A stretch of DNA of 38,894 bases from Nitratifractor sp. Lineage in GTDB: Bacteria; Campylobacterota; Campylobacteria; Campylobacterales; Sulfurovaceae. Shown piece by piece: positions 20,588 to 35,939 of this stretch. Made by a program: the position numbers and the translations under genes. Location of the stretch: positions 1 through 38,894 of the forward strand of contig WFQO01000162.1 of assembly GCA_015486995.1 (NCBI GenBank), read 5' to 3'. The notes under the pieces are model-generated. The model worked only from the letters and a program-made list of their open reading frames with translations, had not been told where the DNA came from and searched no databases. Position 1 is the stretch's first letter; every line of letters begins with the position of its first letter.

Positions 20588-21880
20588 TTATTTCTCCAAA
20601 CGGATCCGTACGCTTCGTTCGTGTGCCGTCAATCCTTCGGTTTTCGCCAGCAGAGCACAGGCTTCCCCCAGTTCGTCGATCCCTTTTTCGCTCATCATGA
20701 TTAGGGAGGATTTTTTCAGAAAATGTTCCACACTCAGCGGAGAGTAGAACTTCGCCGTTCCTCCGGTCGGCAGTGTATGATTGGGACCTGCGATGTAGTC
20801 ACCGATGGGTTCGGGGGTGTAACGCCCCAAAAAGATAGCGCCGGCATGTCGGATGCTGCCCAGCAACTCCATGGGCGAGGCGGTCATCACCTCCAGGTGT
20901 TCCGGGGCGATTCGGTTCATCAGATCCACCGCCTCCGCCATATCGGAAGCGACGATGATAGCACCCCGCTCTTCGATCGATTTGCGGGCGATGGGTTCAC
21001 GCTCCAGTGTTCCCAGGGCCCTCTCCACCTCGTCGTTGACCCGGTTGGCCAGTTCCGCGTCGTCGGTAATGAGGATCGAGCTGGCCATCTCGTCGTGCTC
21101 CGCCTGACTGAGCAGATCCATCGCCAGCCAATCGGGGCGGGCACCGGAATCCGCCAGAATGCCGATTTCACTGGGCCCGGCGATCATGTCGATATTCACC
21201 TCCCCGTAGACCAGTTTTTTGGCGGTGGCGACAAAGATATTTCCCGGGCCGGTAATGACATCCACTTTGGGGATCGTCTCGGTGCCATAGGCCATGGCTC
21301 CGATCGCCGAAGCGCCGCCTACCTTGAAAACTTTGTCGATTCCGCACAGGTGGCACGCCGCCAGGAGCAGAACATTGATCTCGTTGTCCGGTGTCGGCGT
21401 ACAGACGACGATCTCTTCGACTCCGGCGACAATGGCGGGAATCGCGTTCATCAGCAGGGAGCTGGGATAGGCGGCTTTGCCTCCGGGGATGTAGAGACCT
21501 GCCCGATCCACAGCCGTCACTTTCTGCCCCAGCATGGAACCGTTTTTCTCGTAGTCGATCCAGGAGCGCGGCATCAGTTTTTCATGGTAGGCTTTGATAC
21601 GGTCGTAGGCCAGGTGCAGCGCCTCTTTGAGTTCCGGAGAGATCGCCTCGTAGGCCATCTCCATTTCAACGGGATCGACCTGTAACTCTTCGTCGCTTTT
21701 GGGCTCCCAGCGATCGAAACGGGCGATATGCCGACGCAGAGCGGCATTGCCCTCCTGGCGAATCTCCTTGAGTAGATTCCCCACCGTCTCCGTCACCTTG
21801 TCGATATCCATCGCTCCCCGTTTGAGAAGTTCTCCGAATTCCGTCGAAAAATTTTCATCACCGCTGTAATAGATTTTCAT
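20588..21880 (-). CDS. hisD: Histidinol dehydrogenase
   Basis: VDRAGLYIPGGKAAYPSSLLMNAIPA...ITGPGNIFVATAKKLVYGEVNIDMIAGPSEIGI...GPNHTLPTGGTAKFYSPLSVEHF. Confidence 0.97.
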   Translation of the reverse strand: MKIYYSGDENFSTEFGELLKRGAMDIDKVTETVGNLLKEIRQEGNAALRRHIARFDRWEPKSDEELQVDPVEMEMAYEAISPELKEALHLAYDRIKAYHEKLMPRSWIDYEKNGSMLGQKVTAVDRAGLYIPGGKAAYPSSLLMNAIPAIVAGVEEIVVCTPTPDNEINVLLLAACHLCGIDKVFKVGGASAIGAMAYGTETIPKVDVITGPGNIFVATAKKLVYGEVNIDMIAGPSEIGILADSGARPDWLAMDLLSQAEHDEMASSILITDDAELANRVNDEVERALGTLEREPIARKSIEERGAIIVASDMAEAVDLMNRIAPEHLEVMTASPMELLGSIRHAGAIFLGRYTPEPIGDYIAGPNHTLPTGGTAKFYSPLSVEHFLKKSSLIMMSEKGIDELGEACALLAKTEGLTAHERSVRIRLEK

Positions 21881-21901: not shown

Positions 21902-22813
21902 TCAAAATTCATTATCCAATTCCGGGTATTTTCGCCGATATCTCGGCAGCATACTTTCGTTGCCTTTGAGACCGCCCTGATGCAGGTAAAGAATTTCTCC
22001 TCCACTCTCCCACATCTTTTTTTCAAATAGCGTCAACCACCCTTTCGGATCGTAGAGCAGATCAAACTCCACCCCCGTCTGTCGATACAATTCTAACCAA
22101 AGTCGGTAAAACTCCCGATAGAGTTTCCCGAAATGATATTTTTTCCGGGTATCCAAAACCGTAGGCCAGAGTTTTTCATCGGATTCCAGCATGGCGAACT
22201 GCCGGCGCAGGTATCGGGCATCACCGACACAGGGAGTCGTGACGACCTTCGTCGTCAATGAAGAGTGAGCCGTGAGCAGTGAGCAGTTTTTTTGGAGATA
22301 GAGGGCAGTGGTTCCGGTGCCGGAAGGAAGAAAAACTGTCAATACTTCGATGCCGTTGCGCTCCTGCCACTCAACGATCTCCCGGGCCAGGAGACGGATC
22401 CCCTCTTCCGCCTCCGGCTGTCGTCCTCCCTCTTCGACAAAGAGGACTTCCTTTCCCCCTTTTCCCTTTTTGATGTCTGTTTTCTCATAAAAAACCGTTC
22501 CGTTTTCCAGAGCCGCCCGATAATTTCCGATGGGATTCTTCCTCAACCAGGTCGGAATATGGTCGACGAAATACGCGAACTCCCACCCCCGCATTTTCGC
22601 CAGGACCGAAAGGGAATACATCGCATTGGATTGGACAGAGCCGTAGGAGACGACTTTGCGTATGTCGGGGAATTCTCCCTCGAGCCAATGATAGAATTTG
22701 CGCGCTTTGTTGCCCGAAAAATCGGGATGGATCCGATCGTCGCGTTTAAGGAAATATTCCCTTCCCTCGAATCGGATCCGTTCCACCGGGCTGGGGATGG
22801 CAAGTTTCTGCAT
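21902..22813 (-). CDS. PLP-dependent ACC deaminase/D-cysteine desulfhydrase family protein
   Basis: FLKRDDRIHPDFSGNKARKFYHWL...YGSVQSNAMYSLSVLAK...LPSGTGTTALYLQK...TTPCVGDARYLRRQF; contains an unusual insert. Confidence 0.82.
   Translation of the reverse strand: MQKLAIPSPVERIRFEGREYFLKRDDRIHPDFSGNKARKFYHWLEGEFPDIRKVVSYGSVQSNAMYSLSVLAKMRGWEFAYFVDHIPTWLRKNPIGNYRAALENGTVFYEKTDIKKGKGGKEVLFVEEGGRQPEAEEGIRLLAREIVEWQERNGIEVLTVFLPSGTGTTALYLQKNCSLLTAHSSLTTKVVTTPCVGDARYLRRQFAMLESDEKLWPTVLDTRKKYHFGKLYREFYRLWLELYRQTGVEFDLLYDPKGWLTLFEKKMWESGGEILYLHQGGLKGNESMLPRYRRKYPELDNEF
22264..22287. repeat. Heptamer tandem repeat AGTGAGC-CGTGAGC-AGTGAGC-AGT inside a CDS
   Basis: 3.4 heptamer units, translated on the minus strand as part of NCSLLTAHSSLT. 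Confidence 0.85.
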
Positions 22814-22924: not shown

Positions 22925-23938
22925 ATGAAACCCGAACACTACTACAATCCCCACGGCGAACCGATCCTGGACGAAAAAATCTACGGCGGCAATCCGACGG
23001 GCTTCGTCGACTTCAACCGTCCCCGTTACAAATGGAGCGTCAATCTCTACGATCTGATGAACGCCAACACCTGGTTCCCTTCCGAGGTCAATACCGCGGG
23101 GGAGAAGAAGAACTTCGAACTGCTTACCGAGAACGAGCAGGCGATCTACAAACTCACTTTCGCCCAACTCAGCTTCAACGACAGCGCCCAGGAGGAGTAC
23201 CTCTCCGACTTCCGCCGCCTGGCCAACAACCGCCTCGTCAAAGCGGCTTTGAGTCTGCAAATCATGCAGGAGGTCAACCACTCCAAGAGTTACGCCGTAC
23301 TTCTCGACGCCGCCGGCAACTCCGATGAAGTCTTCGATCTTTACAAGCACGACATCGCCCTCAACCGGAAAAATCAGCGCATCGCCGAACAGTTCGCCCG
23401 CTACATCGACGGCAATTCCGCCGACGAAATGCTCCTCAGCGCCATGGCCAGCGTCAATCTCGAAGGCATCTATTTCCTCCTGGGATTCAGCTACATCTAT
23501 GTCCTCGGCGACAAAGTCCCCGGCGCCAGGGATATGATCAAGTTCATCGCCCGAGACGAGATCAATACCCACCTGCCCCTCTTCGCCAATATTTTCAAAA
23601 CGATCTACAAAGAGAACAAAATCCCCGCCTCCGTGGTTGATAAAGCCTACGAGATGATCAAAGAAGCGGTGGACATCGAACTGGAATATGGAAAGTATCT
23701 GCTGGAGAATTATCCGATCATGGGCTTGACCGAAGAGCTGATCGAAAAAACCGTCTACAACTACGCCAACGATCGCCTCAACAAAATCGGTCTCGATCCG
23801 ATCTTCACACAAAGCAGTGAAACCTATCTGCAAAAACTCGTCGAAAAGCATTTACGCATGAACGACGTACGCAGCAATTTTTTCGAAAGCAACGTCAGCA
23901 ACTACGCAAAAAACAGTCTCGATCTGGACGATTTTTAA
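22925..23938 (+). CDS. nrdB: Class I ribonucleotide reductase, beta subunit
   Basis: NPTGFVDFNRPRYKWSVNLYDLMNANTWFPSEV...EVNHSKSYAVLLD...; di-iron ligand-like residues. Confidence 0.95.
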   Translation: MKPEHYYNPHGEPILDEKIYGGNPTGFVDFNRPRYKWSVNLYDLMNANTWFPSEVNTAGEKKNFELLTENEQAIYKLTFAQLSFNDSAQEEYLSDFRRLANNRLVKAALSLQIMQEVNHSKSYAVLLDAAGNSDEVFDLYKHDIALNRKNQRIAEQFARYIDGNSADEMLLSAMASVNLEGIYFLLGFSYIYVLGDKVPGARDMIKFIARDEINTHLPLFANIFKTIYKENKIPASVVDKAYEMIKEAVDIELEYGKYLLENYPIMGLTEELIEKTVYNYANDRLNKIGLDPIFTQSSETYLQKLVEKHLRMNDVRSNFFESNVSNYAKNSLDLDDF

Positions 23939-23954
23939 AACGGAGGGAAAACCT

Positions 23955-23991
23955 CTCTTTCCTCTCCCCTCTTCCCTCTTCCCTCTTCCCT
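23955..23991. repeat. Heptamer tandem repeat (CTCTTCC)n
   Basis: CTCTTTC-CTCTCCC-CTCTTCC-CTCTTCC-CTCTTCC-CT just after the nrdB stop. Confidence 0.9.
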
Positions 23992-32629: not shown

Positions 32630-34687
32630 ATGCTTGAGCAATTGAACGAAGCGCAACGGGAAGCGGCCACCCACATCGACGGCCCTTTGCTGATCCTCGC
32701 GGGTGCCGGCAGCGGCAAGACCAAAACCCTCACCACCCGTTTGGCCTATCTGATCGGAGAGGTAGGGATCGATCCCGCCAATACCCTGACCCTCACCTTC
32801 ACCAACAAAGCCGCCGCCGAAATGCGCGACCGGGCCTTGCAGCTCCTCGACGACCGGACCGCCTATCCTCCGCTCCTGTGTACTTTCCACAAATTCGGTC
32901 TGCTCTTTCTCAAGTTCCACATCGGCCGCCTGGGGCGAGAAAACAGCTTCGTCATCATCGACAGCGACGACAAAAAGCGCCTGATCCGTTCCCTAGCCAA
33001 AGAGCTCAAGATCGACCTAAACCTCTCTTTCCTGGCCGGCGAAATCTCCAAATACAAAAACACCCTCCTCAGCCCTGAGGAGGTCATCGCCAAGGCGGAG
33101 CTTCCCGATTACAAGAAAGCCGCACGGATCTACCAGGCCTACCAGCGCAACATCGAAGAGAACAATCTCGTCGATTTCGATGATCTGTTGATGCTCAGCT
33201 ACCGCATCCTCGAAGAGAACGACGATCTCCGGCGGGAGACCAGTGAACGCTACCAGTACATCATGGTCGACGAGTATCAGGATACCAACGAACTGCAATA
33301 CAAACTTCTCCGCCTGCTCAGCAGCGAACACGACAATCTCTGCGTCGTGGGCGACGACGACCAGAGCATCTACGGCTGGCGGGGAGCCAATCTCAGAAAC
33401 ATCCTGGAGTTTCACGAACATTTCGACAATACCAAGGTGGTCAAACTCGAAATCAACTATCGCTCCACCGCTCCCATCCTTGAAGCGGCCAACAATCTCA
33501 TCGAGCACAACAGCCGCCGACTGGGAAAAACGTTGCTCAGCCACCGGGGTGAAGGTCCCGAAGTCAAGCTGCTCCACTCCCTCGACGAGAGCCACGAAGC
33601 CCGCAACATCGCCCAAAAGATCCAGACACTCCTCGCCGAAGGCGCTTCCCCCGAAGAGATCGCAGTCCTCTATCGGATCAACGCTCTCTCCCGCTCCCTC
33701 GAGGAGGGATTCAGCCGCGAGGGGCTGAGCTTCAAACTGATCGGCGGAATGCGCTTTTATGAGCGGGCGGAGATCAAGGACATCATCAGCTATTTCCGGG
33801 TCCTCTCCAACCCCCACGACGATTTCAGCTTTCTGCGTATCATCAACAAACCCAAACGCGGCCTGGGGAAGACCACCATCGAACGACTCCAGCATCTGGC
33901 GCACGAAAAACGCCAATCCCTCTACCGCAGCATCGATGAACTCAGCCGGGAGCAGCTAGCAACGGTCGTAAGTAAAAAAGCCGCCAAAACCCTCAAAGAG
34001 TTGATCGAAACGATCCACGAACTCCAGGAAGAGAGCCGAAAATCGCTCTACAACTTCGTTGACTTTTTCGAAGAGAAGATCGGCCTTCGCGACTATTACG
34101 GCGCAATGGTCGACGGCTTCGACCGGGTACTCAACATCGACGAATTTTACGGCTATCTCCGTGATTCGGTGATGAAAAACCCCGAACTCACCCTCGACGA
34201 ATTTCTCAACGACATTTCGCTCCAGAGCGACCAGGACGAAGTCGACGGCAACGCCATTACGATTATGAGCATTCACGCCGCCAAGGGGTTGGAGTTCGAG
34301 CACCTCTTCGTCATCGGGATGGAAGAGGAGTTCTTTCCCCTGCTGGGCGACGGTTGCAATATGGAGGAGGAGCGCCGTCTCGGCTACGTCGCCATCACCC
34401 GCGCCAAAAGCGACCTGACGCTCTGCTACTCCGACAGCCGCTTCTACAAAGGCCGCCGCAAACAACTCAAAAAAAGCCGTTTCCTCGGTGAAGCGGGCCT
34501 GATCCAACATGCCAGTCTCAAAGTGAGCAAAAGCGCCGAATACAAAAAGGGCGACCTGGTCAAACACAAGATCTTCGGCATCGGACGCGTCCAGGCCGTC
34601 AGCAAATCCGGCAAAGAGTACAAACTCCGCATCAACTTCGGCGGCACGAAAAAAGAGATCCTCAGCTCTTTCGTGCAGCCGGTATGA
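32630..34687 (+). CDS. UvrD/Rep family ATP-dependent DNA helicase
   Basis: LNEAQREAATHIDGPLLILAGAGSGKTKTLTTRLAYLI...MVDEYQDTNELQY...VGDDDQSIYGWRGA...MSIHAAKGLEFEHLFVIGMEEEFFP. Confidence 0.96.
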   Translation: MLEQLNEAQREAATHIDGPLLILAGAGSGKTKTLTTRLAYLIGEVGIDPANTLTLTFTNKAAAEMRDRALQLLDDRTAYPPLLCTFHKFGLLFLKFHIGRLGRENSFVIIDSDDKKRLIRSLAKELKIDLNLSFLAGEISKYKNTLLSPEEVIAKAELPDYKKAARIYQAYQRNIEENNLVDFDDLLMLSYRILEENDDLRRETSERYQYIMVDEYQDTNELQYKLLRLLSSEHDNLCVVGDDDQSIYGWRGANLRNILEFHEHFDNTKVVKLEINYRSTAPILEAANNLIEHNSRRLGKTLLSHRGEGPEVKLLHSLDESHEARNIAQKIQTLLAEGASPEEIAVLYRINALSRSLEEGFSREGLSFKLIGGMRFYERAEIKDIISYFRVLSNPHDDFSFLRIINKPKRGLGKTTIERLQHLAHEKRQSLYRSIDELSREQLATVVSKKAAKTLKELIETIHELQEESRKSLYNFVDFFEEKIGLRDYYGAMVDGFDRVLNIDEFYGYLRDSVMKNPELTLDEFLNDISLQSDQDEVDGNAITIMSIHAAKGLEFEHLFVIGMEEEFFPLLGDGCNMEEERRLGYVAITRAKSDLTLCYSDSRFYKGRRKQLKKSRFLGEAGLIQHASLKVSKSAEYKKGDLVKHKIFGIGRVQAVSKSGKEYKLRINFGGTKKEILSSFVQPV

Positions 34688-34692
34688 TCTTC

Positions 34693-34724
34693 GAGTGAGG
34701 AGTGAGAAGTGATGAGTAGTGAGG
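34693..34724. repeat. Degenerate heptamer tandem repeat (GAGTGAG-like)
   Basis: GAGTGAG-GAGTGAG-AAGTGAT-GAGTAGT-GAGG directly after the helicase stop. Confidence 0.6.
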
Positions 34725-34751
34725 AACGGAAGGCGCCTGTGGCGCCGTTAT

Positions 34752-34800
34752 TGGGGGCAGGGCTTCAGCCCTGCTTTGCGGGACTGAAGTCCCGCCCCCA
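34752..34800. repeat. REP-like double hairpin with outer inverted repeat
   Basis: TGGGGGC-[AGGGCT TC AGCCCT]-GCTTTGC-[GGGACT GA AGTCCC]-GCCCCCA. Confidence 0.8.
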
Positions 34801-34830
34801 TTTAATCGCATCACAAAATGACGCCCCGAA

Positions 34831-34897
34831 ATTCTCAATTCTCAATTCTCAATTCTCCATCAAAACTCTACCCACTACCCGCTACCCACTACCCACT
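34831..34897. repeat. Composite heptamer repeat cassette (ATTCTCA)n + (CTACCCA)n, copy 1
   Basis: ATTCTCA x3 + ATTCTCC, spacer ATCAAAACT, then CTACCCA/CTACCCG/CTACCCA/CTACCCA. Confidence 0.92.
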
Positions 34898-34917
34898 GCT
34901 CTTTATAGGAGCGCCCC

Positions 34918-35748
34918 GTGAATCGCCTCTTTGTCGTCGACAAGCCGATTTTTGTCTCTTCCAACCGCTATATGAACGTCATCAAGCGAAAATACGGCAC
35001 CAAAAAAGTCGGCTTTTCCGGGACGCTGGACCCTTTCGCCACCGGTTGCCTCATCGTCGCGACGGGGCAGTACACCAAACTTTTTCAGTATCTGGACAAA
35101 ACACCCAAAACCTACCGGGCGACTCTCTGGCTGGGAGCCGAATCGGCCAGCCTCGATCTTGAAAATATTTTAAATATCAGAGAAGTGCCGCGCACTGACG
35201 AAGAAAGTCTTCGAAAAATCCTCTCATCTTTGGAAGGGGAGCTGGAATATCTGCCCCCAAAATACAGCGCCAAAAAGATCGACGGGGAACGGGCATACCG
35301 ACGAATGCGAAACGGGGAAGAGGTCATGATGAAGTCTGTCCGCTCGAAAATTTACTCCTTGCGCCTTCTCCACTACCGCCACCCCTTTGTCACCTTCGAA
35401 GCCACTGTCAGTGAAGGGACCTACATCCGAAGCCTTGGAGCGATGATCGCCGATGCTCTGGGCCTCCCCGGAACTTTGAGTTCTCTCCGTCGCCTTCGGG
35501 AGGGAAAGTTCCGAATCGGCAAGCAGGAACCGCTCGACCCCCTCGACTACCTCGCTTTGCCAGAAAACCGCTACTATGGGGATCCCGAATGGCTCGAACT
35601 CGGCAAAAGACTCCTGCCCCGCTTTTTCGAAAAGCAGGAGAACGGCCTTTACGTCGTCGGCACGGAAAACTTTTTTTCCATTCTGGAGTTCAAAGAGGGT
35701 GAAATAAAGTACCGATTGAATCGGATCGAGAAGTATAGGGGAGGATGA
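34918..35748 (+). CDS. truB: tRNA pseudouridine(55) synthase (GTG start)
   Basis: MNRLFVVDKPIFVSSNRYMNVIKRKYGTKKVGFSGTLDPFATGCLIVATGQYTKLFQYL. Confidence 0.95.
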   Translation: MNRLFVVDKPIFVSSNRYMNVIKRKYGTKKVGFSGTLDPFATGCLIVATGQYTKLFQYLDKTPKTYRATLWLGAESASLDLENILNIREVPRTDEESLRKILSSLEGELEYLPPKYSAKKIDGERAYRRMRNGEEVMMKSVRSKIYSLRLLHYRHPFVTFEATVSEGTYIRSLGAMIADALGLPGTLSSLRRLREGKFRIGKQEPLDPLDYLALPENRYYGDPEWLELGKRLLPRFFEKQENGLYVVGTENFFSILEFKEGEIKYRLNRIEKYRGG

Positions 35749-35785
35749 ATGTTTTTCAGTCATAGGGATGATGCCTTCGGCATCG

Positions 35786-35813
35786 TTATTGGTTATTGGT
35801 TATTGGTTATTGG
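35786..35813. repeat. Heptamer tandem repeat (TTATTGG)x4
   Basis: Four perfect TTATTGG units, preceded by the palindrome GATGCCTTCGGCATC at 35770-35784. Confidence 0.95.
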
Positions 35814-35840
35814 GAGCGTTGCGCAGCAACACATACCTGA

Positions 35841-35901
35841 ATTCTCAATCCTCAATTCTCCATTCTCCATTAAAAATCTACCCACTACCCACTACCCACT
35901 A
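35841..35901. repeat. Composite heptamer repeat cassette (ATTCTCA)n + (CTACCCA)n, copy 2
   Basis: ATTCTCA-ATCCTCA-ATTCTCC-ATTCTCC, spacer ATTAAAAAT, then CTACCCA x3; same order and spacer as copy 1. Confidence 0.92.
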
Positions 35902-35907
35902 CTCTCT

Positions 35908-35939
35908 GATGGCCACCGGAGGGCCCTCCGATGACCATC
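35908..35939 (+). promoter_or_regulatory. 32-nt inverted repeat spanning the ispE ribosome-binding site and start codon
   Basis: GATGGCCACCGGAGGG|CCCTCCGATGACCATC, 14 of 16 positions complementary; ATG at 35931. Confidence 0.6.

Follow-up and report, generated by a model that had tools for sequence, protein, structure and literature searches.

A heptamer repeat array in a recurrently occupied loop of a PLP-dependent enzyme gene of Nitratifractor

The dominance of seven-base repeats in many bacteria has posed an open question since at least 2007. The locus described here raises this question within a coding sequence: how does a tandem array of seven-base units come to lie in the gene of an enzyme, and does it act there as a switch of the reading frame? 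The window is the whole stretch of DNA that was analyzed, 38,894 nucleotides of a Nitratifractor sp. (assembly GCA_015486995.1, contig WFQO01000162.1, positions 1 to 38,894 of the forward strand). A sequence-only reading of this window had pointed out a heptamer repeat within the gene of a PLP-dependent enzyme, and had proposed that it forms an in-frame insert with potential for phase variation.

The array and its host gene

The host gene is an ORF of 303 amino acids on the minus strand (21902-22813). Its PDB matches are 9jqf_A (E 2.9e-57), the nearest solved relative, and 1j0a_A (E 3.6e-05). The TIGR01275 score of 35.3 bits lies far below the curated cutoff of 289.4 bits, which leaves the protein outside this family, and a comparison of the ORF with Pfam models gave no match at 0.001. 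Judged from the TIGR01275 score and the PDB matches, the ORF encodes a diverged member of the ACC deaminase/D-cysteine desulfhydrase-like PLP enzymes, distantly related to the named enzymes themselves. The gene looks metabolic, and its product does not look like a surface antigen. It adjoins an ORF on the same minus strand (20588-21880) which we take to be hisD-like.

Tandem Repeats Finder reports a repeat at 22264-22287 with a period of 7, 3.4 copies and 88% matches, the unit being AGTGAGC on the plus strand and GCTCACT in the sense of the gene (minus strand). This agrees in sequence and position with the repeat that the sequence-only reading had placed in the PLP-enzyme gene. Read directly from the sequence in gene sense, the full array comprises five heptamer registers (22252-22286, minus strand), which run from 22286 down to 22252 as CTGCTCA CTGCTCA CGGCTCA CTCTTCA TTGACGA with the final two units diverged. 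Just two neighbouring full units are identical, the remainder having diverged, and two unit types are adjacent within the array. The period-7 score of the array is 13, and a score of at least 13 was reached in none of 100 first-order Markov simulations of the window. At this score the window contains six period-7 arrays, and other periods from 4 to 15 gave none except period-14 echoes of these same arrays. The tandem 7-bp units exceed chance, and the array is a heptameric simple sequence repeat. The loop that contains the array can form a stem of 4 bp only, so that it does not qualify as a palindromic element of the intragenic REP or RPE type.

The array lies in a loop, here called loop B, which covers residues 173-189 between LQK and TK (22247-22297, minus strand), and it encodes part of LQK-NCSLLTAHSSLT-TKVVTTPCVGD. 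In the alignment with 9jqf, this solved relative is gapped at the loop position. A structure model built from three sequences was poor (pLDDT 47) and usable for secondary structure only; its secondary structure and the 9jqf alignment suggest that the loop is exposed at the surface just before a core beta strand.

Two loops across the orthologues

Among 124 orthologues, many of them from fragmented draft genomes, the length of loop B ranges from 8 to 31 codons, with 17 codons in the window gene. The difference from the minimum of 8 codons, together with the gap in 9jqf, bears out the proposal of an in-frame loop extension derived from the repeat. The accompanying claim that homologues pass almost straight from LQK to xVxTTPCVGD holds for some, namely those with 8-codon loops (natural examples of this length are L016 and L030), and fails for many others in which the loop has 13-18 codons. 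Loops of similar length and unrelated sequence, which had been named as the finding that would speak against an insertion, are common as far as length is concerned; about one fifth of the sampled loops, however, consist of heptamer repeats, and REP-like palindromes are found in others, so that the loops amount to more than unrelated sequence. With a period score of at least 9 as threshold, heptamer arrays were found at loop B in 26 of the 124 orthologues, and none of the other periods from 4 to 11 reached this score in any of them (for period 7, shuffled loop B sequences gave 0.02 at this threshold). The coding sense of loop B is C-rich, and the units vary with the lineage: GCTCACT, CTCTTCA, CTCACTC, CTCTCCA, CACCCTT, CCTACCT, ATCATCC, ATCAATC and GTCCAAT. 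Two orthologues (L131 and L119) have longer, perfect arrays of about 5 copies. The nearest relative (G005, 87% protein identity) has kept the length of 17 codons with its units further decayed. Many B loops are free of repeats, and G007 lacks heptamers in loop B although its genome is rich in them. Further orthologues carry a GTCGGGG..CCCCGAC hairpin followed by CTAC at this position, resembling, by motif and stem, the GTAG-tagged REP class (PMC3733652).

A second loop (loop A, residues about 106-123; 22445-22498, minus strand) is occupied likewise. Here period-7 arrays are present in 18 of the 124 orthologues and arrays of any other period in none. They lie on the strand opposite to those of loop B, with a G-rich coding sense (AGTGAGC, AATGAGG, GGGAGCA). 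In the window gene, loop A holds two copies of AAAAGGG with a score of 7, under the threshold, and Tandem Repeats Finder gives 22450-22471 as period 8; this is possibly the remnant of a decayed array. Heptamers and REP-like palindromes occupy both loops, and each kind is oppositely oriented between them. In loop A, L015, L189 and L190 carry a GTCATTC...GAATC palindromic element in frame, which in L015 is CGTC-tagged and REP-like, and L151 and L138 share a CTTCGAC..GTCGAAG palindrome with a 15-bp stem. The two orientations differ in their coding capacity. The C-rich sense of the window unit is free of stop codons in all frames, whereas a G-rich array of the TGAGCAG type places a TGA in any given frame each 21 nt. 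Several natural G-sense arrays at loop A have TTA at the position of the would-be TGA (L012, L124, L128, L150 and L155), as translation of the array would lead one to expect.

On a tree for which the loops had been left out, parsimony requires at least 18 changes of the heptamer state at loop B and at least 12 at loop A. The number of independent array gains is uncertain because many branches are weak (31 of 120 starred). Within the genus, a single ancestral array with turnover of its units fits as well as repeated insertion and is a fair alternative, since two unit types already adjoin in the window array. An association of arrays at loops A and B was significant over rows (Fisher p 5e-6), but only about four phylogenetically independent pairs are informative and we make no claim of paired acquisition. 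Loop B is a site at which small repeats of the intergenic type land or expand again and again, and what it holds is no one-off insert.

Period-7 arrays in the genome

The genome of the window was surveyed as sampled stretches. In 227 kb, exact tandem runs of about three or more copies numbered 12 at period 7 and 0 at periods 3-6 and 8-20, and in 400 kb of another genome of the genus (G011) 33 such runs at period 7 stood against 1 at other periods. Period 7 is dominant and dispersed through the genome, as in heptameric simple sequence repeats. The units are numerous and include AATGAGG, AATGACC, AAAATCC, AATTCTC, ACCCACT, ACTCCTC and ACTGCTC. The additional arrays of the window lie near 23961, 34830, 35785, 35840 and 35878. 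A CTCTTCC array of 5.3 copies (23955-23991) is situated just downstream of an nrdB-like ORF (22925-23938). Two intergenic regions beside a truB-like ORF (34680-34920 and 35740-35930) are made up over nearly their entire length of three parts in identical order: a G-rich array or run, a central stretch and C-rich arrays (AATTCTC and CTACCCA). The central stretch of the former region contains the palindromes GCAGGGCTTCAGCCCTGC and GCGGGACTGAAGTCCCGC. Two long arrays in G011 are perfect (27.6 copies of AACTCTC at L091:4201-4393 and 15.1 copies of AACGACC at L089:13307-13412) and are good candidates for measuring instability of copy number.

Heptamer richness varies widely among genomes. A five-fold YCA pattern with period 7 had at least one match in 52 of 150 genomes of the order and none in G003, which belongs to the same genus. 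A few genomes, G290 among them, favour period 8; in G290 and G244, both of the same order, period-8 arrays of YCA units equal or exceed the period-7 ones in abundance. A general rule that every heptamer contains YCA, a hypothesis of our own and no criterion taken from the literature, was dropped, the reversed control pattern being equally frequent. In-frame arrays also occur in other proteins of G011. In an E2 acyltransferase the array separates the lipoyl from the E3-binding domain, in a nitrite/sulfite reductase-like protein it lies beyond the domains that were matched, and in a nucleotidyltransferase-family protein it falls inside the matched stretch. These arrays suggest that the tolerance of linkers and loops extends beyond the PLP-enzyme gene.

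The arrays have a polarity. In samples from eight genomes, array pairs at most 250 bp apart were G-rich on the left and C-rich on the right in 28 cases and the reverse in 0. With ORFs defined by a simple longest-ORF rule, the G-rich strand of intergenic arrays pointed away from the nearest ORF in 84 cases versus 19. A matching placement was described for the GGGAATC-type heptamers, there single heptamers, of Xanthomonas and Nostoc (Rehm et al., PMC4692102). Slippage alone fails to predict such polarity, which would be expected under either a polar origin or selection that acts at the ends of genes. At L062:17064-17145, an AGTGGGT (G-rich) and an ACCCACT (C-rich) array form a near-perfect inverted pair with a short gap and a common GTGCGTAG variant, and it looks as though one array were a copy of the other.

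Reading frame, origin and relation to known systems

The expectation that changes in heptamer copy number would shift the frame was correct. Computed for the window gene, every copy-number change by one or two heptamers ends in a stop after 183-199 codons. A natural case is found in G006, whose gene was compared with that of G001 (91% nucleotide identity over the gene). The single frame-breaking internal gap is 14 nt long, equal to two units, and lies exactly in the array. The longer form is also present in G009 and in the genome of the window, so that it is simplest to assume that 14 nt were lost in G006 or in its assembly. The G006 gene has apparently been broken in this way, the loss amounting to exactly two units.

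We put the probability at roughly 80% that the array is a local copy of the genome-wide period-7 class which resides in a tolerant and recurrently occupied loop, and that changes in its copy number are a hazard and no switch. In this explanation, the lineage would generate and spread strictly period-7 tandem repeats, mainly in intergenic DNA, of which the window insert is one local copy that may have grown by slippage after seeding. The array would survive in the gene by virtue of a tolerant loop before a core beta strand and of a C-rich sense that is stop-free in all frames. This loop, and the second one likewise, would be occupied again and again across lineages by heptamer arrays of many units and by REP-like palindromes. 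Purifying selection would hold the total length of the loop in frame while the units drift, and a copy-number change would be a mutational hazard by which the gene is broken now and then.

It is very unlikely that the array is instead a phase-variable contingency locus, in which heptamer slippage would turn the enzyme on and off in a selected and reversible manner. One- or two-unit changes do switch the reading frame, as the two-unit loss in G006 illustrates, and some orthologues have the longer, perfect arrays mentioned above. The window array, however, is no long near-perfect tract: at 3.4 copies and 88% matches it is short and interrupted and decays further downstream, while G005 has kept its length constant in spite of unit decay. 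In addition, most orthologues are open, the product is an enzyme other than a surface antigen, and such a role was judged unlikely for the similar heptamers of Xanthomonas and Nostoc (Rehm et al., PMC4692102). Phase variation, of which the sequence-only reading had seen the potential, is not supported as a function of the array. That the loop is an ordinary one of variable length, in which the repeats are what any free loop acquires through random slippage, is an improbable explanation as well. Loop lengths of 8 to 31 codons, many without a repeat, are in line with it, but random slippage should yield several periods and period 7 is alone in the loop and dominant in the genome; the strand polarity of the arrays also argues against it.

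A more far-reaching alternative is that the arrays move as mobile DNA or arise through a dedicated polar process, either mobile-element-like, such as a REP-type transposase system, or an extension of 3-prime ends at breaks in which heptamers are added during repair, and that they land where REPs land. We consider this unlikely; if true, it would explain the near-exclusive step of 7 nt, the G-then-C polarity without exception in the samples and the landing sites shared with REPs, including the two loops. The 28 versus 0 and 84 versus 19 counts speak for it, as does the use of the same two loops, in opposite orientations, by heptamers and REP-like palindromes, but polarity may equally stem from selection at gene ends. 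Heptamer-rich genomes more often have RAYT-like Y1 transposases (Fisher p 3e-5), but this association is insignificant once stratified by family (p 0.08-0.23), and a RAYT-like transposase was set aside as array source. The incomplete genome of the window itself has no Y1 or reverse transcriptase match. Reverse transcriptases as a general source were likewise rejected, as they showed no association over 150 genomes and none was found in heptamer-rich G000 or G011.

A local copy of the period-7 class in a tolerant loop has partial counterparts in several known systems. The STRR of cyanobacteria are heptanucleotide repeats. Heptanucleotide simple sequence repeats of bacteria were treated by Mrazek (2007), as cited in PMC4679880, and examples are the TAACTGA repeats of Beggiatoaceae (PMC4679880) and the GGGNATC repeats of Xanthomonas and Nostoc (PMC4692102). 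Like those described here, such repeats form short tandem 7-bp arrays that are dispersed over the genome, mostly intergenic and sometimes in ORFs, including in the stop-free orientation, and the GGGAATC type matches our arrays in its polarity towards neighbouring ORFs. The abundance of heptamers, their presence in ORFs and the presence of REP or RPE elements in ORFs are already known. The reported heptanucleotide repeats have one dominant unit per genome, whereas many units per genome occur here, and throughout the family one orthologous enzyme has had the same two loops occupied repeatedly. A search of the open literature found no report of a family in which two loops of one enzyme have repeatedly taken up heptamer arrays and palindromes interchangeably. 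More than 100 sequenced versions of these loops, in short repeat-free, heptamer and REP-like palindrome forms, make the orthologue set a natural record of the arrival, unit change and departure of arrays under the constraint of a reading frame, in a metabolic enzyme that repeatedly takes up intergenic-type repeats as protein sequence. Haemophilus-type contingency loci (PMC2651432) likewise have coding-sequence units whose length is no multiple of 3, so that copy changes shift the frame, but in the window the array is short and imperfect, and the gene looks metabolic. Intragenic REPs and Rickettsia palindromic elements (PMC3733652, PMC10969869) are likewise small intergenic-type repeats in frame in protein genes, and GTAG-tagged REP-like elements occur in the same loops of the relatives of this gene; the window insert differs from them in being a tandem heptamer array and no palindrome.
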